From positions 7,234,001 to 7,298,000 of the forward strand of contig NZ_CP017174.1 in NCBI RefSeq assembly GCF_006402735.1: DNA of 64,000 bases. The letters are read 5' to 3'. The DNA is from Myxococcus xanthus. GTDB taxonomy: Bacteria > Myxococcota > Myxococcia > Myxococcales > Myxococcaceae. The position numbers and the translations under genes were made by a program. Below are positions 7,736-53,645 of the stretch, piece after piece; the stretch's first letter is position 1; each line of letters begins with the position of its first letter. Below the pieces are notes generated by a model. The model was not told where the DNA came from. It saw only the letters and a list, made by a program, of their open reading frames with translations, and did no database searches.

Positions 7736-8662
7736 TCAGCTCTCCTCGCGCGCAATCACGGCGCGCGCGGCCTCCACGTCACGCTTGATCTGCCCCGTCA
7801 GCTCCACCACCGAACCGAACCGCTGCTCGGGGCGCAGGCGGTCGAGGAACTGCACGCGCAGCTCCTTGCCGTACAGGTCGCCGGTGAAGTCGAGCAGGTG
7901 CGCTTCGATCGTCACCTCCGTGCCGCCAAAGGTGGGCTTCACACCGATGTTCGCTGCACCGCCATGCCAGGTGCCTTTTGACTCGCCCGGCAGCTGGACG
8001 CGGATGGCATAGACGCCCGGTGCGGGGCGCAGCTCGTTCTGCGTGTCCACGTTCGCGGTGGGGAACCCGATGCCCCGCCCCCGCCCTGCGCCCGTCACCA
8101 CCGTGCCGTCCAGGTCGAAGGGACGGCCCAGCAGTCGCCGCGCCGCGGACACGCGCCCCTCCAGGATGTACTCGCGCACACGTGATGACGACGCCACCAC
8201 GCCATCCACCGTGACGGGCGGAACCACGTGCACCGTCGCCCCGCGCCGGGCTGCCGCCTCGCGCAGCGTCTCCACGGTGCCGCGCCGGGCAGCGCCGTAG
8301 GTGAAGTCGCTGCCCACCACGACGTGCGCGACGCCGAGCACGTCGAAGAGCGCGGCCTCGAAGTCCGCGGGCGGCGTGCGCGCGTATTCGCGCGAGAAGG
8401 GCTGCACCACCGCCGCGTCCAGTCCGCACTCCTCGAACAGCTCCAGCTTGCGCGGCAGCAGCGTGATGAGCTTCGGCGCCAGCTCCGGCTGGAGCACCTT
8501 GCCCGGGTGGGGATTGAAGGTGAAGGCAGCGGCCCGCCCGTGACGACGCGCCTCCGCGAAGAGGGCCTGATGGCCCACGTGCACACCGTCGAAGTTGCCC
8601 AGCGCGAGTGCCTGTCCGGCCAGCGCCCGGCCCGCGTCCGCCACCGCAGGGAAGACCTTCAT
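7736..8662 (-). CDS. ribF: Bifunctional riboflavin kinase / FAD synthetase
   Basis: 308 residues, the normal RibF length. The N-terminal FAD synthetase (adenylyltransferase) half has LGNFDGVHVGHQALF with the HxGH nucleotidyltransferase motif. The C-terminal riboflavin kinase half has the signature GRGRGIGFPTANVD with the PTAN motif. Together they convert riboflavin to FMN and FAD. GGGAG stands 4 nt before the ATG, and the homology begins with MKVFPAVADAG, so the longer open frame into trmB is rejected. It is divergent from trmB with 75 bp between the starts. Confidence 0.95.
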   Translation of the reverse strand: MKVFPAVADAGRALAGQALALGNFDGVHVGHQALFAEARRHGRAAAFTFNPHPGKVLQPELAPKLITLLPRKLELFEECGLDAAVVQPFSREYARTPPADFEAALFDVLGVAHVVVGSDFTYGAARRGTVETLREAAARRGATVHVVPPVTVDGVVASSSRVREYILEGRVSAARRLLGRPFDLDGTVVTGAGRGRGIGFPTANVDTQNELRPAPGVYAIRVQLPGESKGTWHGGAANIGVKPTFGGTEVTIEAHLLDFTGDLYGKELRVQFLDRLRPEQRFGSVVELTGQIKRDVEAARAVIAREES

Positions 8663-8737
8663 GGGCTCCCGTATACTCCAGGCCTCGCGTTTTTCCCTGG
8701 CCAAACCCGTCGCCGCCGTGGTTGGTGGCGCCCGCCC

Positions 8738-9358
8738 ATGTCCCGTCCTCGCCTGCTCCCCGAGCCCGTCGGCCTCAAGTTCGTCACCCAGGAGACCCCG
8801 CCGGACTGGGACGCCGAATTCGGCTTCAGCGGACCGCTCGAGCTGGAAATCGGCTCCGGCGCGGGCGGCCACGCCCTGGAGTACTGCCGCCGTCACCCCG
8901 AGGTGCGCTTCGTCGCCTTCGAGTGGCGCAAGAAATACGCGCGCGACACCCAGGACCGCGCGGACAAGGCGGGCCTGCGCAACCTGCGCGTCGTCGAATC
9001 CGACGCCCGCTTCATCGTGCCCCGCATCTTCGCACCCGGCTCGCTCGCCGCCATCCACCTCCAGTTCCCCGACCCCTGGTGGAAGCGCTCCCACGCCAAG
9101 CGCGCCGTGATTCAGCCCGCGTTCGCCGAGCTGCTGTACGGCAAGCTCGCACCGGGCGGCCTCTTCGACATGCGCACCGACGTCCAGGACCGCGGCGTGA
9201 CGATGCTCGCCATCCTGGAATCCGCCGGTTTCAAGAACCCCCTGGGTTCAGGTGTTTTCCATCCCTATGACCCAGAGGAAGTGCCCTCCACGAGGGAGCG
9301 CCGCTACCTGGCCAGCGGTGAGCCCGTGTATCGGGCGCGGCTATTGAAGCCTGCCTGA
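8738..9358 (+). CDS. trmB: tRNA (guanine-46-N7)-methyltransferase TrmB
   Basis: 206 residues of a class I SAM methyltransferase. Motif I is LEIGSGAGGHALEY (about 31-44). The family signature HLQFPDPWWKRSHAKRAV is present, and TD and ERR motifs follow near the C-terminus (DMRTDVQD, STRERRY). The enzyme makes m7G46 in the variable loop of tRNAs. The ATG was chosen because homology starts there and the upstream frame runs antisense to ribF. No strong SD is seen. Confidence 0.94.
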   Translation: MSRPRLLPEPVGLKFVTQETPPDWDAEFGFSGPLELEIGSGAGGHALEYCRRHPEVRFVAFEWRKKYARDTQDRADKAGLRNLRVVESDARFIVPRIFAPGSLAAIHLQFPDPWWKRSHAKRAVIQPAFAELLYGKLAPGGLFDMRTDVQDRGVTMLAILESAGFKNPLGSGVFHPYDPEEVPSTRERRYLASGEPVYRARLLKPA

Positions 9359-42833: not shown

Positions 42834-42989
42834 CCGCACTTCTTCAGTCCAGCCGTCCGCGGGAAGCAGGCGGCCGGGGAGGCGCGCACGGGTCGGGCGC
42901 ATTAAGCTGGCGGACCCGATGACGGTGGTGGGAACCCCGCGGTGCCCGGTGCTGTCCGGGAGGGGGAGCCGGTCCAGGAGGATGATGTG

Positions 42990-44150
42990 GTGAACGGGAG
43001 AACGCTGAAGCAGAAGCCTGTCAGCCGGTGGTGGTGGATGGCCGCGCTGGGCGTCGTCGTGTCCGGGTGCCGGACGACGGGCTCCGCCGCGCGGGAGGAG
43101 CCGCGGGCGACCGCGCCCAAACAGGAGCTCCACTTCGACGCGGTGACGGTGACGGCGGACCTGGAGCTGGACAAGCTCAACGACGAGGAGCTCTTCGCGG
43201 GCGGCACGTCGGCCTTCGCCGCGAACGACTTCCAGCAGGCGGCGCGCTACTTCGGCCGGCTCGTGGACTTCTTCCCCGACAGCCGCCACCGCCGCGCGGC
43301 GCTCTACAACGCGGGCCTTGCCCACCAGCGCCTCAAGGAGTGGGAAGAGGCCGGCCACCGTTTCTCCGAGCTGTCGGACCCGGCCAAGGGCCAGGGGGAC
43401 GCGTTGGACGCGGCCTTCCGCGTGGCGGAGGTGGACTACCACCTGGAGCGCTTTGAACAGGCCTCGAAGCTGCTGGGCATCATCGCCGCGCGCGAGGACC
43501 TCCCCCTCAACCGCCGCCTCGAAGCGCAGGTGCAGCAGGGCATCTGCCAGTTGGAGAGTGGCTCGCCGGAAACCGCCGAGGTCACCCTGCGCAAGGCGCT
43601 CTCCACCTATGACGCCCTGGAGGACAAGGGCGAGGTGGACGACTACTTCCCCGCCCAGGCCCACTTCTTCATCGGTGAGCTGTACCGCCTCCACTACGAC
43701 GGTGTGAAGCTGGACCCGGCGAAGGGCGCGGACAAGCTCGCCCAGGACCTCAACTACAAAGCCGAGCTGCTCCTGTCCGCGCAGGGCCACTACCTGCGCT
43801 CCATCCGCGTGGGCAACGGCTACTGGGCCACCGCTGCGGGTACGCAGATTGGTTCGCTGTACGAGAACCTCTACGAGCACATGGTGAACTCGCCCGCCCC
43901 CGCGGAGCTGGATGCCAGCGAGGCGGAAATCTACCGGCAGGAGCTGCGGAAGAAGATTCGGGTGCTGCTCACCAAATCCATCAACATCTACGAGCGCACG
44001 TTGGAGACGGCCGAGCGCATCGGCTCGCAGAGCACCTTCGTGGACCGCACGCGTGAGAGCCTGGCCAAGGTGAAGGCCCTGCTGCTGGCGGACGCGGAGG
44101 GCGAGCCCGCGTCGGCGGCGCCTTCCTCCGAGAGAGAGCCGCATACCTGA
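42990..44150 (+). CDS. TPR-type lipoprotein
   Basis: 386 residues. AGGAGG precedes two adjacent GTG codons at 42987 and 42990; the second has better spacing. The signal (RWWWMAALGVVVSGC) ends at lipobox Cys27. Mature helical repeats (about 70-260) fit tetratricopeptide modules: LFAGGTSAFAANDFQQAARY, RAALYNAGLAHQRLKEWEEA and AAFRVAEVDYHLERFEQASK. It resembles BamD/YfgC-like outer-membrane TPR lipoproteins but also ends in a long helical region of its own. Likely an envelope scaffold. The M48 peptidase gene follows after 60 bp. Confidence 0.85.
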   Translation: MNGRTLKQKPVSRWWWMAALGVVVSGCRTTGSAAREEPRATAPKQELHFDAVTVTADLELDKLNDEELFAGGTSAFAANDFQQAARYFGRLVDFFPDSRHRRAALYNAGLAHQRLKEWEEAGHRFSELSDPAKGQGDALDAAFRVAEVDYHLERFEQASKLLGIIAAREDLPLNRRLEAQVQQGICQLESGSPETAEVTLRKALSTYDALEDKGEVDDYFPAQAHFFIGELYRLHYDGVKLDPAKGADKLAQDLNYKAELLLSAQGHYLRSIRVGNGYWATAAGTQIGSLYENLYEHMVNSPAPAELDASEAEIYRQELRKKIRVLLTKSINIYERTLETAERIGSQSTFVDRTRESLAKVKALLLADAEGEPASAAPSSEREPHT

Positions 44151-44210
44151 GCGCAGCAGTAACGCCCCTGGCTGGGCAGGTCGGGGCGCACGGCGTAGCC
44201 TGGGGCTTCC

Positions 44211-45404
44211 ATGGAGCCCCTCTTCACGCCCGAGCAACTGGCGGAGATTCACGCCTTCCACCAGCCCTATTACATCCGGGCCGCGGTGGGGCCTTTCGCC
44301 AACCTGGCCCTGATGCTGCTCATGTTGGGCGTACTCGTCCAACCGCTCCACCGTCTGGCCGTGGCGGCCGCCGCGGGCCTGGAGCGGCGGCTCGGCTTCC
44401 TCCGGGCGGCGCCGGTCAGCCGCGCCTTCTTCCGCGCCATGGACCGGCTGTGGGGCGAGCCCGGCTGGGGCGCGGCGGTGCTCTTCGCCCTCTTCACGGA
44501 CCTGTTCGTGTCGCTCGTCTACCTGCCGGTGGACGTCTGGTTCAGCTACACGCTGGAGCACCGGCACGGCATGTCCACGCAGACGCCCGCCACCTTCGCC
44601 TATGACATGGTCAAGGCCCAACTGCTGGCGGCCTTCGCCATTTCCGCGCTCGTCATCGGCATGTTCGGCCTGGCGCGCAAGCTGCGCCAATGGTGGCTGG
44701 TGCTGGGCGTGCCCGTGGCGTTGCTGCTCCTCGTCTCCGGGGCACTGGACCCGTATCGCAGCAGGCTCTTCTTCAACCAGAAACCGCTGCCCGAGGGGCC
44801 CCTGCGAACCCGCATCGTGGACCTCATGGAGCAGGCGGACATCGCCTTCGCCGACGTCCTCGTGGAGGAGACCTCCGTCGCCTCGCGCCGGCTGCAAGCC
44901 TACTTCGCCGGGCAGGGCCCCACGCGCACCATCGTCCTCAACGACATCATCCTCAAGGAACTCTCGGAGGACGAAGTGCTGGCCGCGGTGGCACACGAAG
45001 CGGGCCATGTGAACGAGTCGAAGTGGCCCGCCCGCATCGCTTCATCGCTGATGCTGGTGGCCCTGCTCTTCGCGCTCGACCGCCTCTTGCGCCTGTCCGC
45101 GTCGCGGGGCTGGTTCGGCGCCACCCACTTCGCGGACATCCGCAACCTGCCCCTCATCTCCCTGCTCTTCTTCCTCCTCGTGCTGACGGCCAAGCCCCTC
45201 TCGGGCGCCTTCTCCCGGGAACGTGAGCGTGAAGCGGACCGCTATGCCCTGCGGCTCACGGGTGACGTGGACGCCTTCCGGCGCATGCTGGTGAAGGCCG
45301 CGCGCGTCAACAAGATGGACCCCGAGCCCCCCCGCTGGGTCGTCCTCAAGGGCATGAGCCATCCGCCCATCGGCGAACGGATTGCGTCGCTTCCCACGCC
45401 CTGA
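44211..45404 (+). CDS. Ste24-type M48 integral-membrane metalloprotease
   Basis: 397 residues with several membrane helices (about 30-55, 83-105, 140-185, 280-320). The zinc site HEAGH (262-266) and the third ligand in EREREADRYALRL fit M48 CAAX/Ste24 peptidases. A characteristic VLNDIILKELSEDEVLAAVA precedes the motif. Bacterial members take part in membrane-protein quality control. The last residues include HPPIGERIASL, typical of the family end. Neighbouring TPR lipoprotein upstream in the same direction. Confidence 0.92.
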   Translation: MEPLFTPEQLAEIHAFHQPYYIRAAVGPFANLALMLLMLGVLVQPLHRLAVAAAAGLERRLGFLRAAPVSRAFFRAMDRLWGEPGWGAAVLFALFTDLFVSLVYLPVDVWFSYTLEHRHGMSTQTPATFAYDMVKAQLLAAFAISALVIGMFGLARKLRQWWLVLGVPVALLLLVSGALDPYRSRLFFNQKPLPEGPLRTRIVDLMEQADIAFADVLVEETSVASRRLQAYFAGQGPTRTIVLNDIILKELSEDEVLAAVAHEAGHVNESKWPARIASSLMLVALLFALDRLLRLSASRGWFGATHFADIRNLPLISLLFFLLVLTAKPLSGAFSREREREADRYALRLTGDVDAFRRMLVKAARVNKMDPEPPRWVVLKGMSHPPIGERIASLPTP

Positions 45405-45418
45405 AACAGCGGTCGACA

Positions 45419-45467
45419 GGTGGGCTCCCCCCTCCCCTTCCGGCCACGCCTCTTCCCCGAGCCCACC
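45419..45467. terminator. Long-loop inverted repeat at a convergent junction
   Basis: A perfect 9-bp repeat GGTGGGCTC/GAGCCCACC encloses 31 nt, starting 15 bp after the M48 stop. Confidence 0.35.
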
Positions 45468-45479
45468 CGCCGACTGCCT

Positions 45480-45509
45480 CCACCCGGCCGCTCCCCGACA
45501 GCCGGGTGG
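45480..45509. terminator. Bidirectional hairpin before the TPR chaperone-like gene
   Basis: A perfect 9-bp repeat CCACCCGGC/GCCGGGTGG with a 12-nt loop lies 24 bp from the minus-strand stop at 45533. Confidence 0.5.
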
Positions 45510-45532
45510 CCCCACTCCCCCCGACTCCGGCA

Positions 45533-46054
45533 CTACGGCTGCGAGTTCTCCTTCAGCTTCTCCACCGCCACCAAGGTGATGGCCTTCACCAGCGCCCGCG
45601 CCCGGCGGCCTCCCGCCGTCTCGCCATGCGGGTCCGCCTCCACCGCGTTCGCCAGGTCGGTGAAGCCCTGACGCTCTCCCTTGCGGAGGTAGAGCTCGCC
45701 ACGGTTCGCCAACGCCACCGGGTTGTCGGGCTCGCGCTCCAGCGCGGCGCTGTACTCGGCGATGGCGTCTTCCAGCTTGCCCAGCTTCTGGTACACGGTG
45801 CCCAGCGCCGCCCGCGCCGCCGCGTCCTTCGGGTTTCCCTCCACCAGGCCTTCGAAGAGGATGCGGGCTTCCTCCAGACGACCCGCCGCCGCCAGGTCAC
45901 ACCCCACCTGGGCAATGGCCTTCGCTTCCTCGAAGGTCATCCCCTCCACTTCGGCCCACGTCGCCTCTCCCCGGGCGAACGCCTTCAAGCCCTGCACCGC
46001 GCCGCGCTGCATCCGCATGGCCACCGCTCCCTCGTGTTTGATGATGCGTCCCAT
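45533..46054 (-). CDS. TPR protein resembling SycD/LcrH secretion chaperones
   Basis: 173 residues. After a basic N-terminus, three TPR units occupy about 40-145: FEEAKAIAQVGCDLAAAGRL, AAARAALGTVYQKLGKLEDA and PVALANRGELYLRKGERQGF. Size and repeat number match class II type III secretion chaperones, which bind translocators. It starts 6 bp after the HrpF/NolX-like gene, as a chaperone often sits beside its client. Generic TPR function remains possible, because no secretion apparatus genes are in the window. Confidence 0.72.
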   Translation of the reverse strand: MGRIIKHEGAVAMRMQRGAVQGLKAFARGEATWAEVEGMTFEEAKAIAQVGCDLAAAGRLEEARILFEGLVEGNPKDAAARAALGTVYQKLGKLEDAIAEYSAALEREPDNPVALANRGELYLRKGERQGFTDLANAVEADPHGETAGGRRARALVKAITLVAVEKLKENSQP

Positions 46055-46060
46055 GACGGC

Positions 46061-47533
46061 TCAGGCGCTCCGCAGGTTGGAGATGGCCGTCTTCGCCATC
46101 TCGTGGAACTTCGAGGACATGTTGCTCATCAGGTCGAACATCGCCTTGCGCTTCTCCACCAGCCGCTGAAGGCGCAGCTCCAGTTCCTGCATGCTGCTCT
46201 CCAGCTTCGCGCCCGCCTTCCGGTCCGATTCACCGTTGCCCAACGAGGCCCGCTGCTCGCGCACGTTCGCCATCTGCTCCATCACGTCGAGAATCTCCTC
46301 GTCCGTGTCGCTGGAGATGGACATCAAGATGGCTTGAATCTTGTCCTCGATGCTCATGTTGGGGTTGTCGACGATGCTCCGCACATTCGACGAAGCGCCG
46401 CCCACTGGCCGGCTTCCGCCGGAGCCATTCGTGGACGACGTTCCGGATGACGCCAGCGCCGCGTCCGCCTGGCGCAGCGCGGCCGTGACATCGGGCCGGC
46501 CCACGATGCCGTCCCGAGGCCCCACGCCCGCGGCCATCTCCAGCCGGTCGTAGTAGGCGGGGTGGTCCTTGAAGAACTGCGCGGCGCGCTTCAGCGTCGA
46601 CGACGCGGCCGGGCTGTTCAGGATGGCATCCAGGTTGTCGCGCGTGAGCACGTTGTCCCGGGCCCCCACCGCGGTATCGAAGGTGTCCCAGTTCGCATTC
46701 AGCACGCGCAATGCGTCGTGGTACTCGTGGAAGTCCGGGTCCAGCGGGCTCGCCGTCGAAGTCGGCGGGCTGCCCGGTACAGGCGCGGAGCCACCGCCGC
46801 CGGACGTGCCGCCCGTCCCCGGCGCCGTCGTGCCACCACCGCCGGGCGTGCATCCCGTCCCGGGAGGCGTCGTGCCACCGCTTCCAGGGCGCACGGGCCG
46901 GCCATACCGCGCGAACTCCGCATCCACCGACTTGAGCTCGCGCTGCAGGTCCTTCACCGAGAAGGTGTCGAGGTTGTACAGCGGAGAGAAGACGCCAATC
47001 CTCGCCAGCGGCCCCTGCCGGTCGAGCCGCTCGAAGAGGGCCGTGTTGTCCACCATGAAGCGGGCCGCGTCCCGCAACTGAGGTGACAGGCTGGAGTCCG
47101 TGGAGATGCGCTGCAGGTCCTTCTTCGACAGCGAGCCGCTCTTCGTGCCATCCAGCAGGTCCAGTTGCTGGAAGTTCGCCTCCAGCACCTTCAGGGCGTC
47201 CGAGTAGTCGAGCATCTTCGGATCCAACGGGCTGCTGCCCGGATTCAGGATGGGCGACGAGGACGCGGAGGGCGCGTAGCCGCTGTCGGCCTTCGAGTTG
47301 CCCGAGGAGGACGAGTGGTACTCCGTCTTCGCGGGCGGGTTCTTCGACAGCTCCTGCGCCACGCCCATGGCGCCACTGGCCGCCAGCATGACGTTGCCTG
47401 TCGCGACCCCCGCCGCGGTCTTGATGGAGTTGGTGATGAGCGGCGGCAATCCCAGCGCGTTGCCCGCGAAATCCACCGCGGTGGACATGGGGCCAGCCAG
47501 CAGGTTGGCCGCACCTTTGAGGAAGTCGAGCAT
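46061..47533 (-). CDS. HrpF/NolX-like protein (type III translocon type)
   Basis: 490 residues. An N-terminal amphipathic and hydrophobic region (1-60) is followed by two copies of a module seen in NolX/HrpF proteins: DYSDALKVLEANFQQLD with SGSLSKKDLQRI and ARFMVDNTALFERLD (about 103-200), and EYHDALRVLNANWDTFD with DNVLTRDNLDAIL and AQFFKDHPAYYDRLE (about 265-355). A Gly/Thr/Pro linker separates them. Residues 393-480 form a coiled coil. There is no Sec signal, which fits type III export. GAGAGGG precedes the ATG. The match is recognition of motif order, not a search result. Confidence 0.7.
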   Translation of the reverse strand: MLDFLKGAANLLAGPMSTAVDFAGNALGLPPLITNSIKTAAGVATGNVMLAASGAMGVAQELSKNPPAKTEYHSSSSGNSKADSGYAPSASSSPILNPGSSPLDPKMLDYSDALKVLEANFQQLDLLDGTKSGSLSKKDLQRISTDSSLSPQLRDAARFMVDNTALFERLDRQGPLARIGVFSPLYNLDTFSVKDLQRELKSVDAEFARYGRPVRPGSGGTTPPGTGCTPGGGGTTAPGTGGTSGGGGSAPVPGSPPTSTASPLDPDFHEYHDALRVLNANWDTFDTAVGARDNVLTRDNLDAILNSPAASSTLKRAAQFFKDHPAYYDRLEMAAGVGPRDGIVGRPDVTAALRQADAALASSGTSSTNGSGGSRPVGGASSNVRSIVDNPNMSIEDKIQAILMSISSDTDEEILDVMEQMANVREQRASLGNGESDRKAGAKLESSMQELELRLQRLVEKRKAMFDLMSNMSSKFHEMAKTAISNLRSA

Positions 47534-47735
47534 GAACCCTCTCGCGCGACGGGGTTGAAGTGGACGCCGCGCAGTCGTCCTTCGGACGGGACCGCTGGAT
47601 TGCAGCGGCGGTGCCGTCAGTGGGCGTGGGAGGCCCCCAGCGAATTCCGGCGGTTAGCACTCGCCGAAGCAGGGGCACGTCCCCAGGCGCGGACGGAGCG
47701 GTCCACGACGAAGGATTGCGGTTAAGTTCCGCGGC

Positions 47736-48191
47736 ATGCGCACCATGGGCCTGGACCTGGGCACCAAAACCATTGGAGTGGCCGTCTCGGACGGCCTGGG
47801 CCTCACGGCCCAAGGCGTCACCACCGTTCGCCGCACGTCGCTCAAGGCGGACCTCGCGGCGCTGGCCACCGTCGCGAGCGAACACGAGGTGACCCACGTC
47901 GTGCTGGGCCTGCCGCTCAACATGGACGGCAGCGAGGGCCCGCGCGCCGAGGCGTCCCGGAAGTTCGCGGACACCCTGACTCAGTCGCTGGGCGTGACGG
48001 TGGAGCTATGGGACGAGCGGCTGTCGACCGTGGCCGCCACACGGACCCTGCTCGAGGCGGACGTCAGCCGGGCCCGTCGCCGGGAGGTCATCGACCAGGT
48101 GGCCGCGCAGTTCATCCTCCAAGGATGGCTGGACGCCCACCGGCCGCCTGATACCGACTACCACCCCGACGACTACGACTCGGAGCCCTGA
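47736..48191 (+). CDS. ruvX: Putative pre-16S rRNA nuclease RuvX/YqgF
   Basis: 151 residues, typical YqgF length. The RNase H-like fold shows MGLDLGTKTIGVAVSD with the catalytic Asp, HVVLGLPLNMDGSEG, LWDERLSTVAA and the C-terminal DQVAAQFILQGWLD. It matures the 5' end of 16S rRNA. A second ATG at 47745 is possible but the first is kept. Divergent from the HrpF/NolX-like gene. Confidence 0.93.
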   Translation: MRTMGLDLGTKTIGVAVSDGLGLTAQGVTTVRRTSLKADLAALATVASEHEVTHVVLGLPLNMDGSEGPRAEASRKFADTLTQSLGVTVELWDERLSTVAATRTLLEADVSRARRREVIDQVAAQFILQGWLDAHRPPDTDYHPDDYDSEP

Positions 48192-48208
48192 GGGGGCTTG
48201 AGGGCTCC
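48182..48208. terminator. Bidirectional hairpin, ruvX / GT39 junction
   Basis: A perfect 8-bp repeat GGAGCCCT/AGGGCTCC with an 11-nt loop overlaps the ruvX stop and lies 14 bp before the glycosyltransferase stop. Confidence 0.55.
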
Positions 48209-48222
48209 TCCAGGTACCCGCG

Positions 48223-49809
48223 CTACGGCTGACGCCTGTACACGTGCAGCGGCGCGGTGAAGCCATCCAGCTTCTGGTAGGCCACGCCGTCCAGCAGCAG
48301 CGAGCGCTCCTCCAGCTTCACGCCCGCCTCCTTCGCCAGCGCTCCACCGTCGAAGCGGACCAGCACGTCCGGCCGGGCCTCCTGCATGCGCTGGCGGAAG
48401 GTGTCCCAGCGCACGCGCGCCAGCCGCTCCTCGGGAAGGCCGGAGAAGAAGGCCAGCTGCAGGTCCATGTAGTTCGGGTCGATGTCGAGCGCGGCGGCCC
48501 CACCCTTGGCGGCGACTTCCGCCTTCAGGAACTTCGCCACCTGCATCAGCGCCACGGGATTCGTGGACGTGGGGCTGATGGGGCGCATCGTGGTCTGCAG
48601 CGGCCCGTCGGCACGGAACGTATAGATGCCCATCGCCACCGGCACGGCCACGGCGACCAGCACCGTCACGCCCGCCAGGGCCTTGCGCAGCACGGGCCCT
48701 CCACGAGCTCCCACCAGCCCGGCGAAGCCGAAGGCCACGAAGACGGGGACCAGCGCGACCTGCGTCACCGTGAAGCGGCCCAGCGGAACGAAGGTCAGCA
48801 GCACCGCCGCCCGGAAGGTGAAGTAGGCAGCGGGAAGCACCGCCGCGGCCACCAGCCAGCGAGTGTCCGGACGCGAGCGCCACGCGCGGACCATGCCCGC
48901 CATGCCCAGGAGCGCCACGAGGGGCGACAGCGTGAGCATGGCGATGCCGGGCCAGAACCCCAGTTGCTGCAGCCGCCAGAGCACGTTCGACCCCGAGCCC
49001 AGGGACGACTTCACCCAGTTGTGGTGGAAGTCCTCCACCGCCGCCACCGGGAAGAACGGGTTGCCGTGCATCAGCTCATTTCCCTGCATCCACAACAGGG
49101 GGAACGGCAGGCACACCAAGCCGAAGCCCACGGCCCGGGTCAGCGACACCACCTTGTCCTGGCTGCTGAAGCACAACGCCCCCGTGAGCAGCGGGATGTA
49201 CATCCACGCGTCGTAGCGAAGCGCGCACGCCAGGTTGAGCATCAACGCCGCCTGGAACAGGGGCAGGAAGCGGTTGTCATCCACGCCTTCCGCGTACAGG
49301 GCGAAGGTGGCCAGCATGAAGAAGAGGGACACCGCCTCGCTGCAGGCCGTGGTGGAGAACTGCATGTGCATGCCCCACGCCGCGAAGGACAGGCCAGCCA
49401 CCACGCCCGCGCGCCAGCCGAAGAGCCGGCGCGTCAGCGCGAACAGCGGCACCACCGACAGCACGCCGAACAGCAGGCTCACCACGCGGCCCGCGACCTC
49501 CCGGTCGAACACCGACAGCGCCGCGCCCACCAGGTACATGTGCAACGGACCGAACTGGTAGGCCCCGTCCCCATAGGCGGTGATGATGTGCGGCGCCCGC
49601 AACCAGCGCTCCGCCAGCTCCGTGCGCACCACCGCGTCACCGAAGAGGTTCTCATTGACGAAGAACACGCCCAGCCGCGGCACCAGCGCCGCCACCAGCA
49701 ACAGCCCGACGAGCAGCCAGGTGCCTGGCTCGTGCTGAGGGGCAGGCACCGCCGACAGGCCAGGTGCGTGGGGAGGCGAAACGGAGAGGGGGGCGGGGGC
49801 GGTGGCCAT
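48223..49809 (-). CDS. GT39/ArnT-type membrane glycosyltransferase
   Basis: 528 residues with ten or more membrane helices. The GT-C pattern is clear: a first helix LLVGLLLVAALVPRLGVFFV, then the acidic loop NENLFGDAVVRTELAERWL and the segment YQFGPLHMYLVGAALSVFDR, as in dolichyl-phosphate-mannose transferases and ArnT. A C-terminal soluble domain (about 420-528) follows. It would move a sugar from a polyprenyl carrier to a protein or lipid in the periplasm; donor and acceptor are unknown. The ATG at 49809 is taken because the upstream extension is low-complexity. An unknown envelope protein lies 80 bp upstream. Confidence 0.87.
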   Translation of the reverse strand: MATAPAPLSVSPPHAPGLSAVPAPQHEPGTWLLVGLLLVAALVPRLGVFFVNENLFGDAVVRTELAERWLRAPHIITAYGDGAYQFGPLHMYLVGAALSVFDREVAGRVVSLLFGVLSVVPLFALTRRLFGWRAGVVAGLSFAAWGMHMQFSTTACSEAVSLFFMLATFALYAEGVDDNRFLPLFQAALMLNLACALRYDAWMYIPLLTGALCFSSQDKVVSLTRAVGFGLVCLPFPLLWMQGNELMHGNPFFPVAAVEDFHHNWVKSSLGSGSNVLWRLQQLGFWPGIAMLTLSPLVALLGMAGMVRAWRSRPDTRWLVAAAVLPAAYFTFRAAVLLTFVPLGRFTVTQVALVPVFVAFGFAGLVGARGGPVLRKALAGVTVLVAVAVPVAMGIYTFRADGPLQTTMRPISPTSTNPVALMQVAKFLKAEVAAKGGAAALDIDPNYMDLQLAFFSGLPEERLARVRWDTFRQRMQEARPDVLVRFDGGALAKEAGVKLEERSLLLDGVAYQKLDGFTAPLHVYRRQP

Positions 49810-49889
49810 GACGCGCGGCAGGATACGCAGGCACGGCCCAAAGCCAAGCCAACGCCCATTGTTCCCTTGCTCGGGGAGCGCGGCCGATT

Positions 49890-50852
49890 TCACGGTGCGC
49901 GAACCTGCTCCCCTTCCGATATCCAGGGGGCTGCAATCATTTCAGGGTGCGCCGGGGCCAAGGGGCTGCCGGACTCCAGCGTCACCCGCGTGCGGCGGAC
50001 CACCTCCAGCCGCCGGGCGCCCTGCGTCCCCAGCTCGGCGCGCGACGTGTAACTGACCTCCAGCCGCTCGGGAAACGGGCGGCTCAGGTCGAAACGCAGC
50101 TCGCCCTCGGCCCTGGGGGTTGGAGGGCCGTCCGCGCCCTGGGACAGAAGAAGGAAGCGCACCCGGCCGCGGGCGCCATCCAGCTCCACCAACTCGTACG
50201 TGACGACGGCCAGCCATCCCTCCATGGCCCGCGCCACGACCCAGCGCCCTCCTGCTCCCACGGGCTCTTCTGGAAACCGCGGGGTGACGAGCCAGTCCGA
50301 GGACAGCGCCGCCCGCACCAGGGTGCTCAATGCCGCGGAAGCCCCGGGCCCCAGTTGCAGCCATGCCTGAACCGGCGTCCCCCGGTCGGAGAGCACCACG
50401 ACTCCATCCCGGCCACTCACCGCGCCCAGCTCCTCCGCCAACCGCCACGCTGGCTCCATCCCCTCATCGTCCACGGCGCGGACCTCGGGACGCCCCACCC
50501 GCACGTGGTAATGCGCCTGTCCCCTCCCCGCCCCCGCCTGCCATTCCATGTAGAGCGGCACCGAGACCTCGGGGCCATACTCCGTTCGCGACTCGCGGCC
50601 GGCCCCCACTCCCAGCACCGTCTCAACCTCGGGAGAGACCGACACCACCATGCCCTGGCTCCACCCTGGCCGCTGCGCCAGCCGCAGCGCGCGGCGGGGT
50701 GCGCGCCCCGCATCGAGCAGCGCCGTCGCCACCACGTCTCCCTCCGCAGGAGGGACTGTTGCTTGAACCCATGCGCCAAGAAGACAGGTTGCGACGAGCA
50801 GGACGGGCACCAGGAGGCTCCACGGAAGGACAGGCGCCGAGCCCCGTTGCAC
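49890..50852 (-). CDS. Envelope protein of unknown function
   Basis: 320 residues from a GTG. An N-terminal signal or anchor (LPWSLLVPVLLVATCLLGAW) leads to a beta-rich extracytoplasmic region with repeated charged strands (YGPEVSVPLYMEWQAG, GELRFDLSRPFPERLEVSYT, RRLEVVRRTRVTLESG). The layout resembles DUF6263-type secreted proteins, which is a weak impression. It precedes the GT39 gene in one direction (80 bp spacing). Function unknown. Confidence 0.78.
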   Translation of the reverse strand: MQRGSAPVLPWSLLVPVLLVATCLLGAWVQATVPPAEGDVVATALLDAGRAPRRALRLAQRPGWSQGMVVSVSPEVETVLGVGAGRESRTEYGPEVSVPLYMEWQAGAGRGQAHYHVRVGRPEVRAVDDEGMEPAWRLAEELGAVSGRDGVVVLSDRGTPVQAWLQLGPGASAALSTLVRAALSSDWLVTPRFPEEPVGAGGRWVVARAMEGWLAVVTYELVELDGARGRVRFLLLSQGADGPPTPRAEGELRFDLSRPFPERLEVSYTSRAELGTQGARRLEVVRRTRVTLESGSPLAPAHPEMIAAPWISEGEQVRAP

Positions 50853-51343
50853 ACGCCATGCTCAGAGGCCTTCCTCTCGTGCACTCCCGATGAGCCGTCC
50901 AGGATGGGAGACCCTTCGAGTGAAGCATGGGCTGCACCGCGCCGACGCGGATGAGCCGTGTCGCGTTTCATTCACGGCAAAGCACGCCAACGACGGGCCC
51001 CCTTCCCGCGTGCCCGATACCTGGCATGGCATGAAGCGATGTCCGTCGCGCCTCATCGTGACGTGAGCGACGCATCATCCCGTTGTCGCCTCGCGGACGC
51101 GTGTCCGGCGCTCAACGCTCACTCGGCACCCGATACCCATCCCGCACGACCGCTCGTCTGCTTTCATGCATGCGACGCCAGCCTCGCCCGTGAAGGCTCC
51201 GCGCCGACATGTGGAGTGAACGGGCACGCTGCCCCACAACCCACACGAGCATTGCTGCTGCCGGGCGCTGGGGAAATGACCGTTCAGGCGTTCACTACCC
51301 CTCGTGCAGCCGGTGTGCGCCTACCCCCGTGGGCGAGGGCCCT

Positions 51344-51349
51344 TATAAT
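51344..51349 (+). promoter_or_regulatory. Candidate -10 element of the prkA operon
   Basis: A perfect TATAAT stands out in very G/C-rich DNA and would start transcription near 51356, just before the leader hairpins. No TTGACA-like -35 lies at 16-18 bp, so an alternative sigma factor or activator is possible. Confidence 0.45.
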
Positions 51350-51362
51350 CAAGATGCCTTTT

Positions 51363-51401
51363 CACCCCGTGAAGGGGGTGCGCCTTCGGGCGTTCCACCC
51401 C
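51363..51401 (+). promoter_or_regulatory. Leader with mutually exclusive hairpins
   Basis: CACCCC at 51363-51368 and again at 51396-51401 can each pair with the single GGGGTG at 51375-51380. The second fold encloses a CGCC-TTCG-GGCG tetraloop hairpin, giving a ten-pair stem with a 3-nt bulge. The two folds cannot coexist. It lies about 180 nt before the prkA ATG. Confidence 0.45.
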
Positions 51402-51581
51402 TGACACGAGCGTAACGCGCGGTCCCACTCCGCGGCGGGGTCCCGAAGGGGCAGCAGGGCTGTCGTGCCTGGGACCTCGTCGGGGTGGGTGTGGAATGGC
51501 AGTCATGCCCTCCAGGTTGACCATTTTGGCCCCCCTGTCGGCGCGGCTTTCCGCGTCCCCGGGTGGCTCCGAGGGAGAGAC

Positions 51582-53645
<2,064 letters not shown>

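Follow-up and report, generated by a model that had tools for sequence, protein, structure and literature searches.

The gene pair and its modules

The window analysed here is a stretch of 64,000 nucleotides of Myxococcus xanthus, positions 7,234,001-7,298,000 of a complete genome of 9,316,447 bases, and our subject is a pair of genes in it whose products have relatives in type III secretion systems (T3SSs). An open reading frame (ORF) for a protein of 490 amino acids (aa), with its own ATG start, lies at 46061-47533 on the minus strand, as do all features of the pair given below, and is joined head-to-tail by a 173-aa ORF at 45533-46054 that encodes a tetratricopeptide repeat (TPR) protein; six bases separate the stop codon of the first gene from the ATG of the second. 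Since an opposite-strand gene begins at 47736 and another gene ends at 45404, the pair looks like a self-contained two-gene operon, and its promoter region is presumed to be the gap up to the divergent gene (47534-47735). Orthologues of the 490-aa protein were found by tblastn in 39 of 61 relatives; within the genus it is conserved by vertical descent as a single-copy gene, and no relative turned up in the plasmid collection. The nearest T3SS locus found lies beyond the window, at a distance of about 187 kb. A preliminary description of this DNA had reported both genes at these positions and had placed them outside a T3SS locus, and both points were confirmed.

Two NolX-type modules were recognised in the 490-aa protein, at about residues 103-211 (46901-47227) and 263-362 (46448-46747), on the basis of profile matches, their alignment with each other (34% identity across 97 residues) and the structural model. 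The Pfam model NolX (PF05819) matched in two stretches with 27.1 bits (cut-off 26.1), its best stretch (residues 127-171, in module 1) spanning only profile positions 208-250 of 436, and the HrpF/HrpK1 model (PF16937) reached 20.1 bits, below its cut-off of 30.9, with a stretch at residues 314-363 in module 2. NolX was matched in 12 of 20 homologues (E<=1, best E 1.8e-12) and PF16937 in eight (best E 7.3e-9); EF-hand models matched a few homologues weakly (EF-hand_5 in 4/20), and the number of modules varies, some homologues carrying one. The two modules had been named in the preliminary description, and the PF05819 profile bears them out. The N-terminal hydrophobic stretch claimed there did not hold up: about residues 31-64 (47342-47443) form a stretch that is Ala/Gly-rich only, modelled as helices at low confidence, with a highest 19-residue Kyte-Doolittle mean of 1.28 (residues 41-59), and it is not a clear membrane helix. 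The candidate reading as a Sec-exported or membrane protein was rejected, as no hydrophobic stretch was strong enough on this scale. Pfam and NCBIfam scans found no enzyme or toxin domain in the 490-aa protein, and a direct sequence search of the PDB returned nothing relevant.

NolX-type modules also occur in other proteins. A second one in the same genome (321 aa, L046:17448-18410, about C1:7107447-7108409) has two modules at 21.5 bits for PF05819, below the cut-off, no needle-type tail, and a position about 15 kb from a compact T3SS locus; in another stretch (L039), an ORF with NolX modules has neither the tail nor a TPR partner.

The TPR protein has LcrH_SycD (TIGR02552) as its top NCBIfam family (E 7e-14, 51.7 bits), below the curated cut-off of 104.8 bits. 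Its model (predicted local distance difference test, pLDDT, 82) retrieved in Foldseek the chaperones IpgC first (2.3e-5), SycD (6.5e-5) and PcrH (7.8e-5), all within the first seven rows, with designed TPR proteins mixed among the top matches and OGT lower. The three nearest paralogues in its own genome all lie in the larger T3SS cluster, known as T3SS* (2e-20, 2.3e-17 and 2.2e-14), and the next place follows at 1.2e-7. In 27 of 27 named loci, from Myxococcus, Pyxidicoccus, Corallococcus, Archangium, Citreicoccus and metagenome-assembled genomes, a TPR gene lies directly downstream of the homologue of the 490-aa gene, indicating that the pairing is not due to chance; the TPR protein is also the better conserved partner, as in L032, with 80% compared with about 36%. 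It resembles the class II chaperones SycD, LcrH, IpgC and PcrH and the needle cochaperones SctY/YscG in fold, in its top profile match and in the position of its gene beside the presumed substrate, and it differs from class II chaperones in staying below the LcrH_SycD cut-off and in having a gene unlinked to a T3SS cluster. These results make it a candidate SycD/LcrH-like chaperone, in line with the SycD-like partner of the preliminary description.

A needle-type tail shared with type III secretion loci

The best conserved part common to the homologues of the 490-aa protein is the last approximately 105 residues, and this C-terminal needle-type tail is the main feature that the preliminary description had missed. 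It covers residues 385-490 (46064-46381), with a conserved core at about residues 449-488 (46070-46189) that is common to the sctF-position proteins and needle-like ORFs described below. In the model, poor overall but of fair confidence in this part, the tail forms a long helical hairpin (residues 395-429 and 435-489). A search of the 9.3-Mb genome with the tail profile (E<=10) gave only five places, namely the protein itself (1.5e-41) and four ORFs inside two T3SS clusters: the first gene of a compact (short) locus near 7.09 Mb (1.2e-5), the corresponding gene of the larger (long) locus near 2.81 Mb (0.001), and, at 0.18 each, two ORFs of 74 aa in the long locus. With hhalign, the tail of the 490-aa protein matched a family of 28 sctF-position proteins at 96.3% (E 1.9e-9) and a family of needle-size proteins at 96.8% (E 2.8e-10). 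The best of sixty column-shuffled controls reached E 0.14 and 0.031, respectively, reversed alignments gave 0.57 and 0.13, and a TPR alignment gave 0.34. Convergence of coiled coils as the origin of the tail was rejected on the shuffled, reversed and genome-wide controls. On this sequence evidence, we take the tail to be homologous to the sctF-position needle-type proteins of myxobacterial T3SS loci.

Genes of T3SSs are commonly ordered sctF-sctI-sctJ. In both T3SS loci of the genome, the tail match stands just ahead of SctI-like (inner-rod) ORFs and SctJ, at the place expected for the needle gene; the SctI-profile matches next to the tail ORFs (E 1.8e-4 and 2.6e-3) are below the Pfam cut-off. 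A tail ORF was present in all seven T3SS loci read that include the sctF position. Among 40 sctJ-upstream stretches from relatives (one of which, L098, repeats the locus of L051), 36 hold one tail ORF at the sctF position, and the next match among their 4346 ORFs was an unrelated ORF at E 3.3. The four tail-less stretches comprise two of less than 1.4 kb each (L109, L117), one in which the tail ORF lies just past the fetched end (L119; G035:C424:6697-6831) and one true miss (L112). In the compact locus of the own genome (L045:13694-20000, L046:320-2601), the interval from the sctF-position gene to sctV showed no ORF comparable in length to the SctN ATPase, as judged by length and not by profile, and in all six compact loci read the gene adjoining sctV resembles, as we presume, IHF/HU.

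The sctF-position proteins exceed the normal needle length, that of the own short locus having 155 aa, and the 28 of them matched known families weakly: Pfam HrpF in 12 (best 0.0064), T3SS_needle_F in six (best 0.0092) and the NCBIfam HrpA pilin in eight (best 8e-5), while their profile (A4) retrieved no needle structure from the PDB. The larger T3SS* cluster also holds needle-size relatives of 71-76 aa, in some cases arrayed in tandem. T3SS_needle_F (PF09392) was the top Pfam match in six of ten such ORFs (best E 4.9e-5, 23.9 bits), two of the matches covering residues 3-70 of 71; none of the ten reached the cut-off of 29.4 bits, four had no PF09392 match, and NCBIfam gave no needle match in any. 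The two own-genome 74-aa ORFs are identical (L048:6129-6353 and 8544-8768, about C1:2826128-2826352 and 2828543-2828767, minus strand), and the one scanned had no PF09392 match; they are weak relatives of needle subunits inside T3SS*, and their equivalents elsewhere, of 71-76 aa, form tandem arrays of four or five in G033 and G130. In the same cluster, DUF1521 (PF07481, E 3.2e-14), a domain known from rhizobial T3SS effectors, is found in a protein of 388 aa (L048:6617-7783) whose gene immediately precedes a SycD-like one.

A profile of 12 needle-size proteins had a single match at E<=10 among 177,635 PDB sequences, chain 7y6c_F (E 7.3e-6); with a profile built from 30 diverse tails, the same chain came out at 3.6e-6 and the next match at 0.55. 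This chain was deposited as a co-chaperone, yet its sequence matches PF09392 at 8.7e-16, and the crystal is described, in the part of the source that concerns it, as holding residues 33-73 of the needle subunit EsaG with its cochaperones (PMC9426511). The tail profile of the window family alone gave 7y6c_F just E 0.22, and the link to the needle therefore passes via the sctF-position and needle-size families.

Two labels fit the protein only in part. Like NolX/HrpF, the translocon proteins of rhizobial and Xanthomonas T3SSs (PF05819, PF16937), the 490-aa protein has NolX-type modules above the PF05819 cut-off, in two copies; unlike them, it matches about 45 of 436 profile positions per stretch, carries a needle-type tail after the repeats and is encoded outside a T3SS cluster. 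Of the HrpF/NolX-like nature claimed in the preliminary description, the repeats stand, and the full architecture and the T3SS-cluster context do not, so that HrpF/NolX proper is not supported. Compared with the SctF needle (PF09392, TIGR02105) and the Hrp pilin (NF053530), the tail has homologues in the sctF-position and needle-size proteins, whose best similarity is to these families, whereas the protein as a whole has extra domains, has no match to PF09392 or TIGR02105 at E<=1 and, at 490 aa, far exceeds the 70-90 aa or so of a needle subunit. Because these defining features fail, neither HrpF/NolX nor needle subunit is the right label; a candidate T3SS substrate that combines NolX modules with a needle-type tail and has a TPR chaperone of its own is the better description.

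Published accounts describe these systems differently. In the relevant passages of Abby and Rocha (2012; PMC3459982), myxobacteria have a long T3SS locus (T3SS*, MXAN_2434-2464 in M. xanthus) and a short non-flagellar locus in Cystobacterineae, and SctF, tip and translocon are missing, SctF being presumed lost; as far as the corresponding passages of later texts go, the term "needleless" recurs there and the effectors are given as unknown (PMC10433427, PMC12075869, PMC10849154, PMC11509652). These loci lie in the same genomes as the pair and carry tail homologues at the sctF position, whereas needle and translocon are reported to be absent (PMC3459982, PMC10433427, PMC12075869). The open full texts searched named no needle homologue or NolX-like protein in Myxococcus or Myxococcota. 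Given the sctF-position and needle-size relatives, the "needleless" label for Myxococcus T3SSs, which was also the premise of the preliminary description, looks wrong at the level of sequence.

Co-occurrence of the tail with type III secretion

The tail is confined largely to genomes with a T3SS. With a threshold for non-flagellar SctJ that we set at E below 1e-28, 46 of 61 relatives had such a protein, and three more had flagellar-type scores only (1e-16 to 1e-20); tail matches (E<=0.5) occurred in the same 46 genomes and in none of the 15 others, and one of them (A5, G031:C580) contains an internal stop. In a draw of 146 genomes from the phylum, with SctV, including its flagellar relatives, counted at E<=0.001 and the tail at E<=0.01, 120 genomes had both, four the tail only, six SctV only and 16 neither, two of the tail-negative genomes being inferred by subtraction. 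The SctV-positive, tail-negative genomes comprise three with flagellar-type scores (G041, G042, G056), two that are 59% and 70% complete (G083, G102) and one inferred by subtraction (G114). Fisher's test gave 3e-13 in the phylum draw and 1e-14 among the 61 relatives, values to be read with the shared ancestry of the genomes in mind, as the counts are not independent. This co-occurrence and the T3SS relatives of both partners independently back the T3SS link suggested in the preliminary description.

Which of the two machines the pair may use is suggested by eight relatives (G032, G034, G040, G046, G051, G055, G058, G060) with a single non-flagellar SctJ match and a tail ORF elsewhere. Their single loci resemble the compact locus in SctV score and gene layout (L051-L053 read), so that the compact locus is the more likely machine for the pair. 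In one relative (G036), the pair and the compact T3SS locus are on the same contig, about 29 kb apart.

In other Myxococcota, long ORFs with differing N-terminal parts bear the tail at the very C-terminus, with 25 matches in G065 and 11 in G084, and a TPR gene lies beside them in 11 of 20 stretches. Pfam scans of ten of these ORFs found no enzyme domain, and T3SS_needle_F matched the C-terminus of two of the ten (E 1.3e-4 each, below the cut-off). Possibly these ORFs form a family of T3SS substrates. In nine stretches (L125-L130, L135, L136, L140), the ORFs are 440-965 aa long as fetched, with N-terminal parts otherwise unrecognised, and several stand beside a TPR gene. In family f5 (L040:6401-7757 and L041), the tail and the TPR partner are kept while no NolX modules are recognisable in the alignment, which makes the tail plus its chaperone the older core. 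The genes around the pair in the window (42942-53645) recur near homologues in other genomes; we take them to be YqgF/RuvX-like, an M48-type protease, ArsA-like ATPases and a serine-kinase PrkA-like gene.

A candidate tip or translocator and its alternatives

In the reading that we favour, and to which we give a probability of roughly 0.6, the two genes form an operon for a T3SS substrate encoded apart from its machine, probably a tip or translocator protein with a needle-type tail, and for its dedicated TPR chaperone; perhaps the substrate serves the short T3SS locus at a distance of 187 kb. The chaperone would hold the tail (or the N-terminus) in the cytosol and keep the substrate soluble and export-ready, plausibly through a grip on the C-terminal helix like that of YscG/EsaH-type cochaperones on the needle subunit. 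A precedent from Edwardsiella is given in the cited part of one study, in which EscE and EsaH form a groove engulfing the needle C-terminus and needle chaperones are said to have TPR as a structural motif (PMC9426511). The complex would be passed to the export gate, and the substrate would leave through a Myxococcus T3SS, most likely that of the short locus. Beyond the inner membrane, the tail may pack at or on a needle-like filament, so that the NolX (EF-hand-like) modules and the N-terminus would be shown toward the contacted cell. The observation of the preliminary description is thus confirmed, and its interpretation is partly supported.

Several results weigh against the tip or translocator reading. 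The NolX score is a mere one bit over the cut-off, the full-length model of the 490-aa protein is poor (mean pLDDT 62), and no sctF-position or needle-size ORF passes a curated needle cut-off. When the window-family tail profile was run against the PDB, 7y6c_F came eighth, after coiled coils, and a structure search with the tail hairpin returned generic coiled coils only. A distance of 187 kb separates the gene from a T3SS, four genomes (G061, G070, G076, G115) have the tail and no SctV match, and the co-occurrence is uncorrected for shared ancestry. Foldseek and VIA-align searches with the full-length model were uninformative on the tail fold, giving generic helical hairpins and some EF-hand proteins; needle structures were not in their lists, which excludes nothing.

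Of the alternatives, an effector survives best, although we consider it unlikely: the tail would serve generally as a tag for export and chaperone binding, with the NolX modules acting in or on the prey cell. The long tail ORFs with varied N-termini, often beside TPR genes, fit this view. On the other hand, the 490-aa protein has no enzyme or toxin domain that our scans could find, its gene is single-copy and vertically conserved, and the gene layout has no obvious adjoining immunity gene. Moreover, NolX/HrpF relatives are described as translocon proteins, as titles and abstracts agree.

A structural filament subunit, which would co-polymerise along a needle-like filament via its tail with the NolX modules decorating the surface and without capping, appears quite improbable. 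The homology to the sctF-position proteins, themselves over-long, speaks for such a role, whereas the unlinked operon with its own chaperone speaks against it, and a protein of 490 aa would be large for lining a narrow filament. We judge equally doubtful a cytoplasmic, non-exported and calcium-binding regulator of T3SS origin that titrates chaperones or the export gate. This would suit the EF-hand-like modules and the lack of a clear membrane segment, but the tail is homologous to exported, filament-forming parts, and NolX-type repeats are known from exported proteins. The absence of any T3SS relation, with a convergent coiled-coil tail beside a generic TPR protein, is strongly disfavoured: coiled coils and TPRs commonly draw weak matches, and coiled-coil proteins do outrank the needle peptide in the window-family search, but the own-genome tail matches lie solely in T3SS clusters, the shuffled and reversed controls fail, and tail presence agrees with non-flagellar SctJ status in 61 of 61 relatives.

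Beyond the tip or translocator reading, we tentatively propose a broader model, which we think somewhat less probable than its opposite: the "needleless" T3SSs of Myxococcota would have needle-type subunits, and the tail would be a modular export and docking domain shared by an open set of substrates that each come with a TPR chaperone of their own. The 490-aa protein would be the conserved core member that caps the needle. The substrates would then act as exchangeable needle-anchored tips, like those reported for the Kil pilus.

A lost needle and a missing translocon, as stated in the published passages cited above, leave open how the predation-linked T3SS* delivers anything. If needle-type subunits and a tailed tip or translocator are indeed present, this question would be narrowed to a short list of named genes, and the tail would offer a sequence handle for finding more T3SS substrates across Myxococcota.
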